Below, one piece after another: positions 17,309 to 45,114 of a stretch of 64,000 nucleotides of DNA. Position 1 is the stretch's first letter; each line of letters opens with the position of its first letter. The notes beneath the pieces are model-generated. The model worked only from the letters and a program-made list of their open reading frames with translations, did no database searches and was not told where the DNA came from. Source of the stretch: an uncultured Flavobacteriaceae bacterium (GTDB lineage Bacteria > Bacteroidota > Bacteroidia > Flavobacteriales > Flavobacteriaceae); contig CALFUL010000021.1 of the NCBI GenBank assembly GCA_937929935.1, positions 62,001 to 126,000 on the forward strand, written 5' to 3'. A program made the translations under genes and the position numbers.

Positions 17309-17382
17309 TTTTACTTACGTATTAAGTAATGAGTATTAAGTAATAAGTACTCTGTACCATTTACTTTTTACTTTATACTTTT
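17309..17382. repeat. Complementary-arm and tandem-repeat spacer between sufC and sufD
   Basis: A 14-bp tandem (GTATTAAGTAATGA at 17319-17332, GTATTAAGTAATAA at 17333-17346) runs into an inverted repeat: AAGTAATAAGTAC at 17338-17350 against GTACCATTTACTT at 17354-17366 (10 of 13 paired, 3-nt loop). Arms built of AGTAA/AGTTAA words also flank the four-helix-bundle genes at 20.6 and 44 kb. Here no gene lies between the arms, so this may be an empty or decayed version. Confidence 0.45.
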
Positions 17383-18135
17383 TTAAACTACCGCCTCGTT
17401 TTTTATCCAATCATACCCTTTTGCTTCAAGCTCTAAAGCCAATTCTTTGCCTCCAGATTTAACAATTTTACCATTATGCAATACATGCACAAAATCAGGA
17501 ACGATATACTCCAATAAACGTTGGTAATGTGTAATTACAATTACTGCGTTGTCTTTACTTTTCAGTTTATTGACTCCGTTAGCCACAATTCTCAAGGCGT
17601 CAATGTCTAAACCAGAATCAGTTTCATCTAAGATGGCCAATTTAGGCTCTAACATTGCCATTTGAAAGATTTCATTTCGTTTCTTCTCACCACCCGAAAA
17701 CCCTTCGTTGAGCGAACGCGACAAAAACTTACGGTCAATCTCTAACATCTCAGCCTTTTCGCGAATCATTTTCAACATTTCTTTAGCGGGCATATCTTCA
17801 AGACCTTTTGCTTTTCTAGATTCGTTGATAGCAGTCTTCATAAAGTTTGTTACCGAAACACCAGGAATCTCTACCGGATACTGAAATGATAAAAACACCC
17901 CTTTGTGAGCTCTATCTTCAGGCGAATCATCTTCTAAATCTTCTCCGTTTAAAACAACATTACCTTTAGTGACTTCAAATTCTTCTTTACCAGCAATAAC
18001 AGAAGCTAAAGTACTTTTGCCCGAACCGTTAGGGCCCATAATTGCATGTACTTCACCAGCATTTACACTTAGGTTGATTCCTTTTAATATTTCTTTATCT
18101 TCTACACTCGCGTGTAAATCATTAATCTTAAGCAT
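17383..18135 (-). CDS. sufC: Fe-S cluster assembly ATPase SufC
   Basis: 250 residues, the ABC-type ATPase of the SufBCD complex. Walker A GPNGSGKST (~35-43), Q-loop FQYPVEIPG, signature LNEGFSGGEKKR and Walker B ILDETDSGLDIDAL are all present. It stands between the MBL lipoprotein gene and sufD. Five bases separate it from the upstream lipoprotein gene. Confidence 0.97.
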   Translation of the reverse strand: MLKINDLHASVEDKEILKGINLSVNAGEVHAIMGPNGSGKSTLASVIAGKEEFEVTKGNVVLNGEDLEDDSPEDRAHKGVFLSFQYPVEIPGVSVTNFMKTAINESRKAKGLEDMPAKEMLKMIREKAEMLEIDRKFLSRSLNEGFSGGEKKRNEIFQMAMLEPKLAILDETDSGLDIDALRIVANGVNKLKSKDNAVIVITHYQRLLEYIVPDFVHVLHNGKIVKSGGKELALELEAKGYDWIKNEAVV

Positions 18136-19093: not shown

Positions 19094-20539
19094 TTACCCT
19101 ACTGAGCCTTCAAGGCTAATTTCTAATAGTTTTTGTGCTTCCACCGCAAATTCCATAGGAAGTTTGTTTAATACTTCTTTGCTGAAACCATTGACTATCA
19201 AAGCAATTGCCTTTTCGGTCTCAATACCTCTTTGATTGCAATAGAAAATTTGGTCTTCACCAATTTTACTTGTGGTTGCCTCGTGTTCTATTTGCGCTGA
19301 TTTGTTTTTCACTTCGATATACGGAAAAGTATGTGCGCCACATTCATTACCCATCAATAGTGAATCACACTGCGAAAAGTTTCGAGCGTTTGCTGCTCTT
19401 GCACCTATTTGTACCAATCCTCTATAGCTATTCTGAGATTTTCCTGCGGATATGCCTTTTGATATGATTGTACTTCTGGTATTTTTTCCTAAGTGAATCA
19501 TCTTAGTACCTGTATCAGCCTGCTGATAATTATTGGTTACTGCTATAGAGTAAAATTCTCCAACTGAATTATTTCCTTTTAGAATACACGAAGGGTATTT
19601 CCAAGTTACTGCTGAACCTGTTTCAACCTGTGTCCAAGAAATTTTTGCATTCTTTTCGCACAATCCTCTTTTGGTTACAAAATTGTACACCCCACCTTTA
19701 CCTTCTGCATTGCCAGGATACCAGTTTTGAACTGTTGAATATTTAATTTCAGCATCATCTAAAGCGATGAGTTCTACAACCGCTGCATGCAATTGATTTT
19801 CATCGCGTGACGGAGCGGTACAACCTTCTAAATAACTTACATAACTACTTTCATCAGCAATAACCAAGGTGCGCTCAAACTGACCCGTACCTCCTTCATT
19901 GATTCTGAAATAAGTCGACAGCTCCATAGGGCATCTAACTCCTTTCGGAATATAGCAGAAAGAGCCATCTGTAAATACCGCCGAATTTAAGGCTGCATAA
20001 AAATTATCTGTTTTAGGCACTATAGTGCCCATATATTTTTTCACGAGCTCAGGATGCTCTTGAATCGCCTCAGAAATTGGCATAAAAATTATTCCTTTTT
20101 CCGCTAAGGTCTTTTTGAATGTTGTAGCTACTGAAACTGAATCTACAACAATATCAACTGCAACGTTTTGTAATTTCTTCTGCTCATCAACAGAAATACC
20201 CAACTTTCGGTACATCTCTAATAAATCAGGATCAACATCTTCTAGTGATTTGTTTGGGTCAGCAGCTTTAGGAGCTGAATAATAACTAATCGCTTGAAAA
20301 TCTGGCTTTTCATAATGAACATTCGCCCATTCAGGTTCCTCCATCTTTTCCCAAATACGGAAAGCTTCCAAACGCCAATCAGTCATCCATTGGGGTTCGT
20401 TTTTCTTTTTAGAAATTGCACGAACAATATCTTCGTTCAATCCTTTCGGAAAAGTATCTGACTCAATATCCGTATAGAAACCATATTCATATTCTTTGGT
20501 TTCTAATTCTTTCTTTAATTCCTCTTCAGTATATGCCAT
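19094..20539 (-). CDS. sufB: Fe-S cluster assembly protein SufB
   Basis: 481 residues, the usual SufB length. SufB is the main scaffold on which the nascent Fe-S cluster is built. Recognised stretches: the N-terminal [39 protein letters not shown] in the beta-helix, and the C-terminal [21 protein letters not shown]. It follows a four-helix-bundle gene that separates it from the sufA-like gene. Translation starts at the ATG 20537-20539. Confidence 0.97.
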
Positions 20540-20555
20540 GTCTTCTCTAGTAAAA

Positions 20556-20580
20556 AAGTTAAAAAGGGAAAGAGTAAAAA
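20556..20580. repeat. Left arm flanking the four-helix-bundle gene in suf
   Basis: AAGTTAAA + 8 nt (AAGGGAAA) + GAGTAAAAA. The reverse complement of 20973-20990 reads AAGTTAAA + GAGTAAAAA + A, so the arms pair over 17 bp with an 8-nt bulge in this arm. Confidence 0.55.
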
Positions 20581-20952
20581 TTATACTATTCTCTTTTTAA
20601 CAAACTTGATGTAATTAGCAAGTTGTTTTGAAATATTCAAAACCTCATTCTTATATTCTTTTAACTCTTCTTTTTCAAAATAACCAATTTCCAACATTAC
20701 ATTGAAAAGACTCCTTACTTCTCCAGCAGAACCCTTAGAAAAATAAAGATATCGTATTAGTTCTTTATCTGTCTCTCTTTCAAATCTTTCTGCAATATTA
20801 TTAGAAATTGAAATCGTTGCACGTCTTAACTGGTCAACCATCGCAAAATCAATTTTTAGAGGTTGCTCTTTAAGCAACTTATAAACTTTGCCCGTAAAAA
20901 CTATTGTGGCTTTATAAACTTCAAGATCTTCAAAAGAAGTATACTTAGCCAT
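20581..20952 (-). CDS. Four-helix-bundle protein (23S rRNA intervening-sequence protein family)
   Basis: 123 residues, all-helical. The family signature is clear: [14 protein letters not shown] at the start, then [21 protein letters not shown] and [20 protein letters not shown]. The fold is the same as proteins encoded by 23S rRNA intervening sequences and the Avd accessory protein of diversity-generating retroelements. It is inserted between the sufA-like gene and sufB, and its flanks (20556-20580, 20973-20990) are mutually complementary. A related gene sits in the sdh operon at 43961. Function unknown; the RFERET/AEGYGRY region is the conserved basic patch. Confidence 0.9.
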
Positions 20953-20972
20953 ATTTACTTTTACTTATTTTC

Positions 20973-20990
20973 TTTTTTACTCTTTAACTT
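20973..20990. repeat. Right arm flanking the four-helix-bundle gene in suf
   Basis: TTTTTTACTCTTTAACTT, complementary to the two blocks of the arm at 20556-20580. It lies between the sufA-like stop and the four-helix-bundle start. Confidence 0.55.
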
Positions 20991-20993
20991 ACT

Positions 20994-21323
20994 TTAAAGA
21001 GAAAAGCTCTCCCCACAGCCACAAGTTCTTTGAGCGTTCGGATTGTTAAATACAAACCCTTTACCATTCAGTCCGCCAGAATATTCTAAGACCGTTCCTA
21101 CTAAATACAAAAAGCTTTTCTTTTCAACTATGATACGAACATCATTGTCTTCAAAAACCTTATCAGTTTCGCCCATCTTATTGTCAAAATCAAGCTCGTA
21201 AGATAACCCACTACAACCGCCACTTTTTACTCCAACCCGAACATAATCTTTGGCGGCATCAAAACCTCCTTCTGACATGAGATTGATTACCTGTTGTTTT
21301 GCTGTTTCTGATACTTGTATCAT
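20994..21323 (-). CDS. A-type Fe-S carrier/scaffold protein (SufA/IscA/HesB family)
   Basis: 109 residues, a complete A-type carrier. The three cysteine ligands are present: C in KSGGCSGLSYEL (~37) and the C-terminal pair in RTCGCGESFSL. These proteins accept a cluster from SufBCD and deliver it to targets. It is the first gene of the leftward suf cluster, preceded by a -7 box. Confidence 0.94.
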   Translation of the reverse strand: MIQVSETAKQQVINLMSEGGFDAAKDYVRVGVKSGGCSGLSYELDFDNKMGETDKVFEDNDVRIIVEKKSFLYLVGTVLEYSGGLNGKGFVFNNPNAQRTCGCGESFSL

Positions 21324-41931: not shown

Positions 41932-43935
41932 ATGGGCGTATTGGATTCTAAAGTTCCTGCTGGGCCGTTGGCCAATAAATGGACAGATTATAAAAATCAT
42001 ATTAACCTTGTCAATCCGGCAAACAAGAGAAACATCGATATTATCGTTGTGGGTACTGGTTTAGCTGGTGGTGCTGCGGCTGCAACTTTAGCAGAGCTAG
42101 GGTATAATGTGAAAACATTTTGCTATCAAGATTCTCCGAGACGTGCGCATTCAATTGCTGCCCAAGGGGGAATTAATGCTGCAAAAAACTATCAAGGTGA
42201 TGGTGACAGTAACTACCGTCTTTTTTATGATACAGTAAAAGGTGGTGATTACCGTTCACGTGAAGCAAACGTGTATCGCTTAGCTGAAGTATCTGGCAAT
42301 ATCATTGATCAATGTGTTGCTCAAGGAGTTCCTTTTGCACGTGAATATGGCGGGCTTTTAGACAACCGTTCTTTTGGTGGAGTTTTAGTTTCTAGAACTT
42401 TCTACGCGAAAGGTCAAACAGGACAACAACTACTTTTAGGTGCATACTCAGCAATGAACCGTCAAATAAACCGTGGAAAAATTAAATCTCACAACCGTCA
42501 TGAAATGATGGATTTGGTAAAAGTAGACGGAAAAGCAAGAGGAATTATAGCACGTAACTTAGTGACCGGAGAGATCGAACGTCATTCAGCTCACGCAGTA
42601 GTATTAGCTACAGGTGGATATGGAAATGTATTTTTTCTTTCTACCAATGCGATGGGTAGTAACGTAATGGCAGCTTGGCGCGCTCATAGAAAAGGAGCTT
42701 TCTTCGCTAACCCATGTTACACACAAATACACCCAACGTGTATTCCTGTTTCTGGTGAACACCAATCGAAATTGACGTTGATGTCAGAGTCATTACGTAA
42801 TGATGGCCGTATTTGGGTTCCGAAAAGAAAAGAAGATTCTATAGCAATTCGCGAAGGGAAACTAAAACCGGGTCAGCTTAAAGAAGAAGATAGAGATTAC
42901 TACCTAGAACGAAGATACCCTGCTTTCGGAAACTTAGTACCACGTGATGTTGCTTCTAGAGCAGCAAAAGAAAGATGTGATGCTGGTTTCGGAGTTAACA
43001 AAACAGGTGAAGCTGTTTATTTAGATTTTGCTGCCGCTATCGAAAGATATGGTAACGAAAAAGCTTTGACTTCAGGAATTAAGAATCCGGATCAAGCTAC
43101 AATTACCCAACTAGGTAAAGATGTTGTTGAAGCGAAATACGGAAACCTTTTTCAGATGTATGAGAAGATCGTTGATGAGAATCCGTATGAAACGCCAATG
43201 ATGATTTATCCTGCGGTTCACTACACTATGGGCGGCCTTTGGGTTGATTACAATTTACAAACTACCATTGAAGGTTGCTACGCTGCTGGTGAAGCAAACT
43301 TTAGTGATCACGGTGCAAACAGATTAGGTGCTTCTGCACTGATGCAAGGTTTAGCTGACGGATATTTTGTGCTTCCTTATACTATCGGTGATTATCTTTC
43401 TAATGATATCCGTACAGGAACCATTCCAACAAATACTCCAGAATTTGATACCGCTGAAAACGAAGTCAAAGCTCGTTTAGAAAAGTTAATGTCTGGTAAA
43501 GGAGAGCATTCTGTAGATTACTACCATAAGAAATTAGGTAAAATCATGTGGAACAAATGTGGGATGAGCAGAAATGCAAAAGAATTACAAGAAGCCATTG
43601 ATGAGATTTCTGCTTTAAGAGCAGACTTCTGGGAGAATGTAAAAATACCAGGTAGTGCTAACGGCATAAACCAAGAACTAGAAAAAGCTGGTCGTGTTGC
43701 AGACTTTTTAGAATTAGGAGAATTGTTCGCTAAAGATGCATTGACAAGAAATGAATCTTGTGGTGGTCACTTTAGAGAAGAATACCAAACACCAGAAGGT
43801 GAAGCCATGAGAGATGATGAGAATTTCAAATTCGCTTCAGCTTGGGAATATAAAGGTGAACCTAAAGATGCTGTTCTTCACAAGGAGGAATTAGTGTATG
43901 AAAATATTGAGTTGAAAACACGTTCCTATAAATAG
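41932..43935 (+). CDS. sdhA: Succinate dehydrogenase flavoprotein subunit
   Basis: 667 residues. It oxidises succinate to fumarate with covalently bound FAD. FAD-binding [15 protein letters not shown] at the N-terminus, the covalent-flavin histidine in [17 protein letters not shown], and the substrate-site HPT (QIHPTCIP) plus [11 protein letters not shown] are present. The extended length is normal for the Bacteroidota/epsilon type. Its stop (43933-43935) lies directly against the left arm of the inserted four-helix-bundle unit. Confidence 0.97.
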
Positions 43936-43955
43936 GTTAATGGTAAAAAGTTAAT
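43932..43955. repeat. Left arm flanking the four-helix-bundle gene in sdh
   Basis: ATAGGTTAA + 8 nt (TGGTAAAA) + AGTTAAT. The reverse complement of 44331-44347 is ATAGGTTAA + G + AGTTAAT, so both blocks pair exactly and only the spacer length differs. The arm includes the sdhA stop codon. Confidence 0.6.
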
Positions 43956-43960
43956 CGTTA

Positions 43961-44335
43961 ATGGGTCAGGTAAAAACTTTTGAAGATTTAGAATGTTGGA
44001 AAAAAGGAACCTTACTCAGAAGAGAAATAGGTGAGTTAATTAAGACTTATCCTAGTCACGAGAAATTTGAATTAGTATCTCAAATGCGAAGAGCATCTAG
44101 ATCAATTACTCATAATATTGCAGAGGGATATGGGCGTTACCATTATCAGGAAAACGCTCAATTTTGTAGAATATCAAGAGGTTCGGCTTATGAAATATTA
44201 GATCAATTGATTGTAAGTCTAGATGAAAATTATATTAGTAACGAAAAATATGAAGCGTTAAAATCCTTAACTGCAGATTGTATCAAAATTTTAAATGGAT
44301 ACATCAATTACCTAATTAAAGCTAAGGCCAATTAA
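43961..44335 (+). CDS. Four-helix-bundle protein (23S rRNA intervening-sequence protein family)
   Basis: 124 residues, same family as the gene at 20581: KTFEDLECWKKGTLL, QMRRASRSITHNIAEGYGRYH and RGSAYEILDQLIVSLDENY are the signature regions. It sits between sdhA and sdhB, where most relatives have none, and is bracketed by complementary arms (43932-43955, 44331-44347). It shares only moderate identity with the suf copy, so the two are not a recent duplication. Function unknown; probable accessory to an RNA or retroelement-like insertion. Confidence 0.9.
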   Translation: MGQVKTFEDLECWKKGTLLRREIGELIKTYPSHEKFELVSQMRRASRSITHNIAEGYGRYHYQENAQFCRISRGSAYEILDQLIVSLDENYISNEKYEALKSLTADCIKILNGYINYLIKAKAN

Positions 44336-44347
44336 CTCTTAACCTAT
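44331..44347. repeat. Right arm flanking the four-helix-bundle gene in sdh
   Basis: ATTAACT-C-TTAACCTAT, the complement of both blocks of the arm at 43932-43955. It overlaps the stop codon of the four-helix-bundle gene. Confidence 0.6.
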
Positions 44348-44367
44348 AACAAATAACAATTTCAGTT

Positions 44368-45114
44368 ATGAAATTAAATCTAAAAATATGGCGTCAAGAA
44401 GATGCCAAATCGAAAGGAAAAATGGTCAATTACTCTTTAGACGGAGTAGAAGGTGACATGTCCTTTTTAGAAATGCTCGATATTCTTAATGAGCAACTCA
44501 TTAATAAAAATGAAGAGCCCGTTGTTTTTGATCATGATTGTCGTGAAGGAATTTGCGGTTCATGTTCATTAATGATTAATGGTGAACCTCATGGTCCAGA
44601 TAGAATGATTACAACCTGCCAATTGCATATGCGCAAGTTTAATGATGGTGATACAATTGTTATTGAGCCATTCAGAGCAAAAGCATTTCCTGTGATAAAA
44701 GATTTAATGGTTGACCGTAGCTCGTTTGACCGTATTCAACAAGCCGGAGCTTATGTTTCAGTGAATACTTCTGGTAATACGCAAGATGCAAATTCGATTC
44801 CGATTAATAAAGAAGATGCTGATGATGCATTTTATGCCGCTGCTTGTATTGGTTGTGGGGCATGTGTAGCAGCTTGTAAAAATGCAAGTGCAATGCTCTT
44901 TACCTCAGCTAAAGTATCTCAGTATGCTTTATTACCTCAAGGTCAAGTAGAGGCTACAGAACGTGTTGAAAACATGGTGCGTCAGATGGATCTTGAAGGT
45001 TTTGGAAACTGTACCAATACTGGTGCTTGTGAAATAGAATGCCCTAAAGGAATTTCATTAGAAAACATTGCTCGTATGAACCGAGAATATTATAGTGCAA
45101 GTGTGAAAGGATAA
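44368..45114 (+). CDS. sdhB: Succinate dehydrogenase iron-sulfur subunit
   Basis: 248 residues. It carries electrons from FAD to the cytochrome through three clusters: the [2Fe-2S] ligands in [11 protein letters not shown], and the ferredoxin-type motifs [15 protein letters not shown] and [15 protein letters not shown]. Last gene of the sdh operon, followed by a terminator. Confidence 0.97.

Follow-up and report, generated by a model that had tools for sequence, protein, structure and literature searches.

An IVP gene between sdhA and sdhB framed by inverted heptamer arrays: a probable operon-gap relative of the rRNA intervening sequences

What kind of element is the short gene that separates sdhA from sdhB in an uncultured Flavobacteriaceae bacterium, and why do its two flanks repeat the same short words on opposite strands? 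A preliminary description of the window (the whole 64-kb stretch of DNA that was analysed) had seen here a four-helix-bundle gene inserted between complementary arms, akin to a second copy in the suf genes. The locus consists of three genes on the forward strand: sdhA (41932-43935; NF005749, 1182.5 bits), an open reading frame of 124 amino acids (43961-44335) and sdhB (44368-45114; NF005746, E 1.3e-128). The open reading frame matches PF05635, the profile of the 23S rRNA intervening-sequence protein (23S_rRNA_IVP, here IVP), with E 4e-33 and 114.3 bits against a curated cut-off of 33.8, as well as TIGR02436 (four helix bundle protein) with 106.6 bits against a curated cut-off of 24. The AlphaFold2 monomer model, obtained with 24 aligned sequences, is predicted to consist of four helices with a mean pLDDT of 95.7, so that the fold assigned earlier agrees with both profiles and with the model. 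Sequence comparison brought up a single relative of known structure, 2gsc (XCC0516 of Xanthomonas campestris, with five chains in the structure; E 4.1e-10), which is described as a toroidal homopentamer in a passage of PMC4990558. A known structured RNA is not supported, as Rfam gave no match at gathering score anywhere in the 64-kb window, and PADLOC matched neither IVP of the window as a defence system.

The flanks of the gene are built of heptamers. The left array (43936-43963, + strand) follows directly on the TAG stop codon of sdhA (43933-43935), just where the left arm had been placed before, and its four units, read in register, are GTTAATG, GTAAAAA, GTTAATC and GTTAATG, the final three bases of the last unit being the ATG start codon of the IVP gene. 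The right array (44330-44357, - strand) has four in-register units with the same GTTA core, which read GTTATTT, GTTATAG, GTTAAGA and GTTAATT on the minus strand from 44357 to 44330, and it overlaps the IVP stop codon. The letters of both arms had been given correctly, and the arms are real, although the right one had been ended at 44347 and the array reaches 44357. The spacers reported for the two arms, 8 and 1 nt, do differ, and the difference is exactly 7, that is, one heptamer. The 64-kb window was scanned on both strands for runs of 28 nt that carry the in-register word GTTA three times or more out of four, a word picked after inspecting these same arms, and only the run at 43936 (+) and three overlapping ones (-) within 44323-44364 were found. 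Complementarity between the arms of this single locus is weak: alignment does not distinguish them from shuffles (p 0.149), and the RNA duplex is marginal (p 0.044). A clean target-site duplication was also considered at the sdh gap, where a 4-nt GTTA can be read on both sides; none is claimed, because the array itself consists of GTTA.

The proposal that the unit was inserted into the sdh gap is supported by the genus. Of 14 genomes sampled from the genus, 13 gave an SdhB, the own genome among them, and the sdhA-sdhB gap was read in those 13. In 10 of them the stop codon of sdhA is followed after only 6 to 8 bases by the start of sdhB, so the gap is empty, and an IVP gene occupies it in just one, the genome of the window. 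Over the order, an IVP was found at this gap in 6 of 296 genomes (29 of the 30 fetched loci were tested, weaker matches being left out). Two other genus members (L125 and L130) carry in the same gap differing hairpin-like inserts, judged by eye, which are devoid of an open reading frame.

The arms were then considered across the IVP elements of the order, in which PF05635 was matched in 41 of 59 genomes (own included), with 0 to 16 matches per genome, and in none of 14 control genomes. The survey started from 128 ORF matches, of which 115 were complete from start to stop at E<=1e-8; removal of duplicates left 113, and both flanks were available for 110; the 117 loci fetched, own copies included, are part of the listed PF05635 matches. 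For these 110 elements the best alignment of a flank with its own partner has a mean score of 29.4, versus 16.8 with the arms of other elements and 16.9 with dinucleotide shuffles. Complementarity reaches p<=0.01 in 66 and p<=0.05 in 81, and significance is absent in 29, including the sdh element (0.149), L002 (0.95) and L063 (1.0). The claim that such arms are more complementary than shuffled flanks is thus not refuted over 110 loci. When partners were swapped within one genome, the own arm won in 187 of 191 pairs. In 85 of 110 elements the minimum-free-energy fold pairs the two flanks over 8 bp or more, against 47 of 110 when the right flank is taken from another element; for 63 of 110, the RNA duplex that an element's own flanks form has a z value below -2.

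The period of seven seen at the sdh locus is general too. In the arms of the 110 elements, identity is 0.461, 0.428 and 0.391 at lags 7, 14 and 21, compared with about 0.309, the z value at lag 7 being about 33; a smaller rise is found at lag 8 (0.350). Identity passes 0.45 at one or more lags between 4 and 12 in 83 elements, and lag 7 dominates in 64 of these. Counting one element for each of the 62 site clusters leaves the lag-7 identity at 0.458 and arm complementarity at p<=0.01 in 40 of 62. Co-directional gaps without an IVP gene (n=134, from a 442-kb sample of the own genome) have a lag-7 identity of 0.310, and only 10 of the 134 reach at least 0.45, versus 68 of the 110 IVP elements. 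The consensus words that a greedy search gave for the heptamers are descriptive only. A second set of 111 elements, 109 of them kept, overlaps with the first, as the window's own, one from G041 and one from G036, at least, are in both. In these 109, many of which have one core, the own mean is 31.9 versus 19.2 for cross pairs, and the own score rises above the 95% point of the cross-pair scores in 53 and above the 99% point in no more than 15. The arms are therefore element-specific inverted heptamer arrays, complementary to their own partner, and similar arms are seen in other phyla and on cyanobacterial plasmids.

Where these elements sit is equally regular, since both neighbours lie on the strand of the IVP gene in 101 of 110 elements versus 189 of 358 background genes. 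The proportion is 54 of 62 when one element is counted per site cluster and 99 of 109 in the partly overlapping second set.

The genome of the window holds several such units. PF05635 has eight matches in it, one of them broken by two stops (L008, G000:C8:3633-3881), which has the look of a decaying element. The seven unbroken copies are found at hisH-hisA, at hemC-hemE, at ruvC-hemW, beside a signal peptidase gene, between the two members of an RND efflux pair, and in the suf and sdh genes. The suf copy is the second IVP gene of the window (20581-20952, - strand; PF05635 E 3.5e-27), and lies between a HesB/SufA-type gene (20994-21323, Fe-S_biosyn) and sufB (19094-20539, a profile match), with its arms in the gaps 20953-20993 and 20540-20580. 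Alignment of these arms gives p 0.01 and their RNA duplex p 0.03. The parallel once drawn between the spacers of the two copies is loose, for an alignment of the suf arms contains gaps of 4, 3 and 1 nt and offers no single clean spacer. The two proteins are indeed divergent, being 33% identical, so that neither is a recent duplicate of the other, and a shared type of element behind both copies is well supported by the population tests of the arms. The preliminary description did not mention that the arms are built of heptamers, that the protein belongs to the IVP family, that heptamer and protein lineage are coupled, that the same gap is occupied in other lineages, or that there are copies without IVP.

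These last copies are arrays without an IVP gene. An inverted heptamer array with an AGTA core lies between sufC and sufD (17314-17387), and a 17-mer of it occurs 14 times in the genome within 2 mismatches, at 12 places, compared with one occurrence of the reversed control pattern. Among these places, one is the right arm of an IVP element, L001. In the 12 AGTA-array places examined, with that of the window included and that of L001 left out, 11 lie between co-directional genes and 11 have a lag-7 identity of at least 0.45, while the inverted repeat is significant (p<=0.05) in 7 and not in 5. None of them is one of the eight IVP places of the genome. L001, which has the AGTA core, sits between hisH and hisA with IVP-less arrays flanking it on both sides; a single his operon, at G000:C20 43479-45999, contains an IVP unit and two IVP-less ones, all three sharing one heptamer core.

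The sdh gap has been occupied elsewhere as well. When an alignment of the sdh IVP was scanned against a collection with one genome per species and the best 80 loci were kept, 9 of the best 10 and 19 of the best 80 relatives were hosted by the sdhA-sdhB gap, and those in the same gap among the best 80 include Cyclobacteriaceae, Fulvivirga and an Ignavibacteriota genome. In a tree of 89 rows the sdh-gap label needs 7 changes, versus 22 when shuffled, so the gap was entered several times or else lost its element repeatedly. A single clade for 22 Flavobacteriales sdh-gap IVPs is not rejected by the AU test (p 0.162), and neither is vertical descent with many losses; a single origin is thus, with 7 label changes, neither shown nor rejected. 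In the survey tree, near-copies included, the gap labels need 18 changes versus 43 shuffled, with site B unclustered by lineage (4 changes for 4 rows).

For a closer view of this gap, 25 elements were found and 24 analysed, some of them near copies, L185 being left out as it is without a left arm. The ratio of GTTA to TAAC is 64:1 in their left arms and 1:96 in their right arms. Own pairing scores 28.5 versus 23.7 for cross pairing, the own partner is the best in 4 of 24 rows, and swaps lose in 221 of 276 cases; this moderate excess may reflect selection on a motif for the protein and not on pairing. Among the relatives of the sdh IVP that lie at other gaps, at least three GTTA words are found in the arms of 16 of 23 with protein identity of 54% or higher, 9 of 16 at 50-54%, 14 of 24 at 45-50% and 3 of 22 below 45%, and they are found in 17 of 107 elements of the general survey. 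Over 190 elements, with same-site and same-genome pairs removed, the 4-mer similarity of the arms grows as the proteins become more alike, starting at 0.36 and reaching 0.49 (Mantel r 0.231, the maximum of 200 permutations being 0.133). A wrong-strand control gives r -0.015 overall, yet it is elevated in the two highest identity bins (0.36 and 0.38). The heptamer core thus tends to follow the lineage of the IVP protein, and because arms travel with the gene, this coupling may in part be descent and not recognition.

Copies at the same gap also tell of selection and transfer. In 14 of 20 hand-picked same-gap pairs dN/dS is 0.03-0.14, dS being saturated in the remaining six, and the protein of the IVP elements is under purifying selection. 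In the suf pair L007/L082 the pS of the IVP gene is 0.35, versus 0.81 and 0.62 for its neighbours, and in the sdh pair L141/L148 it is 0.32, versus 0.73 and 0.66. Over 31 hand-picked pairs, the pS of the IVP lies under both neighbours in 17 and over both in 7. An IVP younger than both of its host neighbours suggests that it entered the same gap unaccompanied by its flanks; most of the weight lies with these two strong pairs.

We think that the finding at the sdh gap is real and is one case of a general rule, the anatomy of which comprises the arrays, their inversion, the period of 7, element specificity, co-directional placement, empty sites, recurrence at the same gap and copies without IVP. 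On this basis we regard it as probable that the sdh element is an operon-gap relative of the intervening sequences (IVS) of rRNA, that is, an IVP gene within two inverted arrays of a lineage-associated heptamer, the gene probably being without a promoter of its own. We infer from this anatomy how the element might work. The IVP, by analogy with the ring of five of its solved relative, would bind the heptamers that flank its gene. Once transcribed into polycistronic mRNA, the arms would pair into a hairpin enclosing the IVP cistron, and this hairpin could be cut or bound, as RNase III does to the IVS in 23S rRNA, where the ends are not religated, so that an insertion behind a stop codon would cost the host little. 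The left array extends into the start codon of the IVP gene, and a protein bound there might limit its own translation. Copies would spread horizontally, the same gap being preferred, by an activity supplied in trans; profile searches for reverse transcriptases and Y1 transposases identified no partner enzyme for this movement. More tentatively, and with a good deal of doubt, the IVP/S23 proteins might as a family be ring-shaped readers of 7-nt repeats, one heptamer for each lineage, in which case many arrays (the cyanobacterial STRRs, TAACTGA, GGGAATC) would be arms of IVP elements, or their IVP-less offspring, in the gaps of cotranscribed genes.

Other readings of the same anatomy have to be weighed. 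The arms could be terminal repeats that act at the level of DNA, the unit being mobilised in trans by a Y1 transposase of the IS200/REP type that reads structure, and the pairing of RNA being incidental. The copy numbers of IVP and Y1_Tnp are correlated over the 59 genomes (Spearman 0.53, p 2e-5, a raw value with genome size, completeness and kinship uncontrolled), and words of one heptamer family are spread over 12 places of the own genome. This genome has three Y1_Tnp matches (best E 2.5e-8). We find the DNA-level reading unlikely, as 7 of the 22 genomes with at least 4 IVP copies have no Y1_Tnp match, the arms vary from element to element and so provide no fixed recognition sequence, and placement on the sense strand is unexpected of a DNA element unless selection imposes it.

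Slightly less likely still, to our mind, is that the IVP regulates the operon in which it resides, by binding the arms and tuning sdhB (or sufB or hisA), and is inherited vertically with frequent loss. The purifying selection on the protein would suit such a role, as would the tendency of the protein tree to follow the gap, and arrays that abut the IVP start codon and sit just ahead of the next gene. The occupancy of the sdh gap given above, in a single genus member and in six genomes of the order, speaks against it, as do host functions as unrelated as his, hem, ruv, efflux, suf and sdh, and the two clear cases in which the flanks are older than the element.

An accessory role in a diversity-generating retroelement or another reverse-transcriptase element is very improbable. 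It would draw on the homology of Avd (4DWL) with PF05635 (2GSC) reported in a passage of PMC10053308; a reverse-transcriptase partner is rejected, as PF00078 (RVT_1) has no match in the own genome (85% complete) or in 15 of the 22 genomes with at least 4 IVP copies, and the correlation of copy numbers is absent (rho 0.11). That AT-rich flanks merely appear complementary by chance, as the alignment of the sdh arms alone would allow (p 0.149), is scarcely credible, being refuted at the population level by the survey and swap tests, the period of 7 and the unique in-register GTTA stretches.

The operon-gap relative of the IVS that we favour can also be followed onto plasmids. A plasmid scan matched 28 records, mostly of cyanobacteria, and 12 cyanobacterial loci were fetched, with cas6-cas4 (two), cas10-cmr3 and conjugation genes among their neighbours. 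Their arms have a lag-7 identity of 0.564 and score 38.0 with the own partner versus 17.8 in cross pairs, the own one being the best in 9 of 12. Nine of the 12 IVPs lie between genes annotated on their own strand; L255 and L256 have both annotated neighbours on the opposite strand and L257 only the downstream one, and in L260 the two arrays are direct, not inverted. The IVP genes of L253, L258 and L260 lie within cas operons of cyanobacterial plasmids and have heptamer-array flanks. A scan of phages found no IVP relatives, and eleven relatives (L242-L252) are on IMG/VR contigs; ten of these were read, some having heptamer-like flanks by eye. Viral contigs with IVP genes are possible vehicles of transfer.

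Bacterial heptamer repeats and the IVP/S23 family have both been described, and both are left unexplained in the cited passages. Should each IVP prove to read the heptamers that flank it, the two puzzles become testable with one protein and one oligonucleotide, and orphan seven-letter DNA repeats would gain a likely owner. A widespread class of operon-invading elements would then be definable by a rule simple enough for computer annotation. In this order a single genome can have as many as 16 PF05635 matches; the genome of the window hosts members in the operons of his, hem, suf and sdh, and others lie in cas operons on cyanobacterial plasmids.

Among known systems, the REP/RAYT and MITE families consist of intergenic repeats with dispersed copies that are devoid of the gene. 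The IVP elements are like them in having intergenic repeats and dispersed gene-less copies, and are unlike them in that no transposase lies inside the element and the arms are without a fixed sequence across elements. IVP genes in cas operons, the cmr2-cmr3 gap included, have been listed earlier (passages of PMC3936711 and PMC10910872), and this gap also holds an IVP gene on a Picosynechococcus plasmid. In the relevant passage of PMC3936711 they are listed as having a cas-associated function, whereas the plasmid cases here resemble ordinary heptamer-armed elements, and the cas-associated IVPs may be ordinary insertions of such an element.

Heptamer repeats have been described in their own right: TAACTGA in Beggiatoaceae, Cyanobacteria and Bacteroidetes (PMC4679880), and GGGAATC in Xanthomonas and GGGGA(C/T)T in Nostoc (PMC4692102). 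Convergent heptamer pairs number 70 in X. campestris (PMC4692102), from which the solved pentamer also comes. According to passages of both papers, these repeats share with the IVP arms the period of 7 and a mostly intergenic position, often just before start codons or nearer to the end of the preceding gene. Unlike the arms here, they are given there without a stated link to an IVP gene; 'S23' and 'four helix' have 0 occurrences in the main text of the two papers, and in the open-licence literature, as far as its accessible passages go, no paper was found that joins IVP genes with heptamer arrays.

The closest system is the IVS of 23S rRNA, elements with an S23p/IVP ORF in Leptospira, Coxiella and others that RNase III excises from the rRNA (passages of PMC4990558). 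The sdh element differs in lying in the gap of a protein-coding operon, between sdhA and sdhB in a window without an Rfam match, and not within an rRNA gene, and in that its ends are element-specific heptamer arrays; complementary ends that form a stem round the ORF are found at the population level and are marginal at the sdh locus alone. Given its location, we do not class it with the 23S IVS and see in it only an element that would work in the same way. Common to both, as far as passages of PMC4990558 describe the IVS, are the protein family, a length of about 400 nt, complementary ends enclosing the ORF, a sporadic distribution and recurrent sites, and the 23S IVS sits where a cut of the RNA is tolerable, as the operon-gap element probably would.
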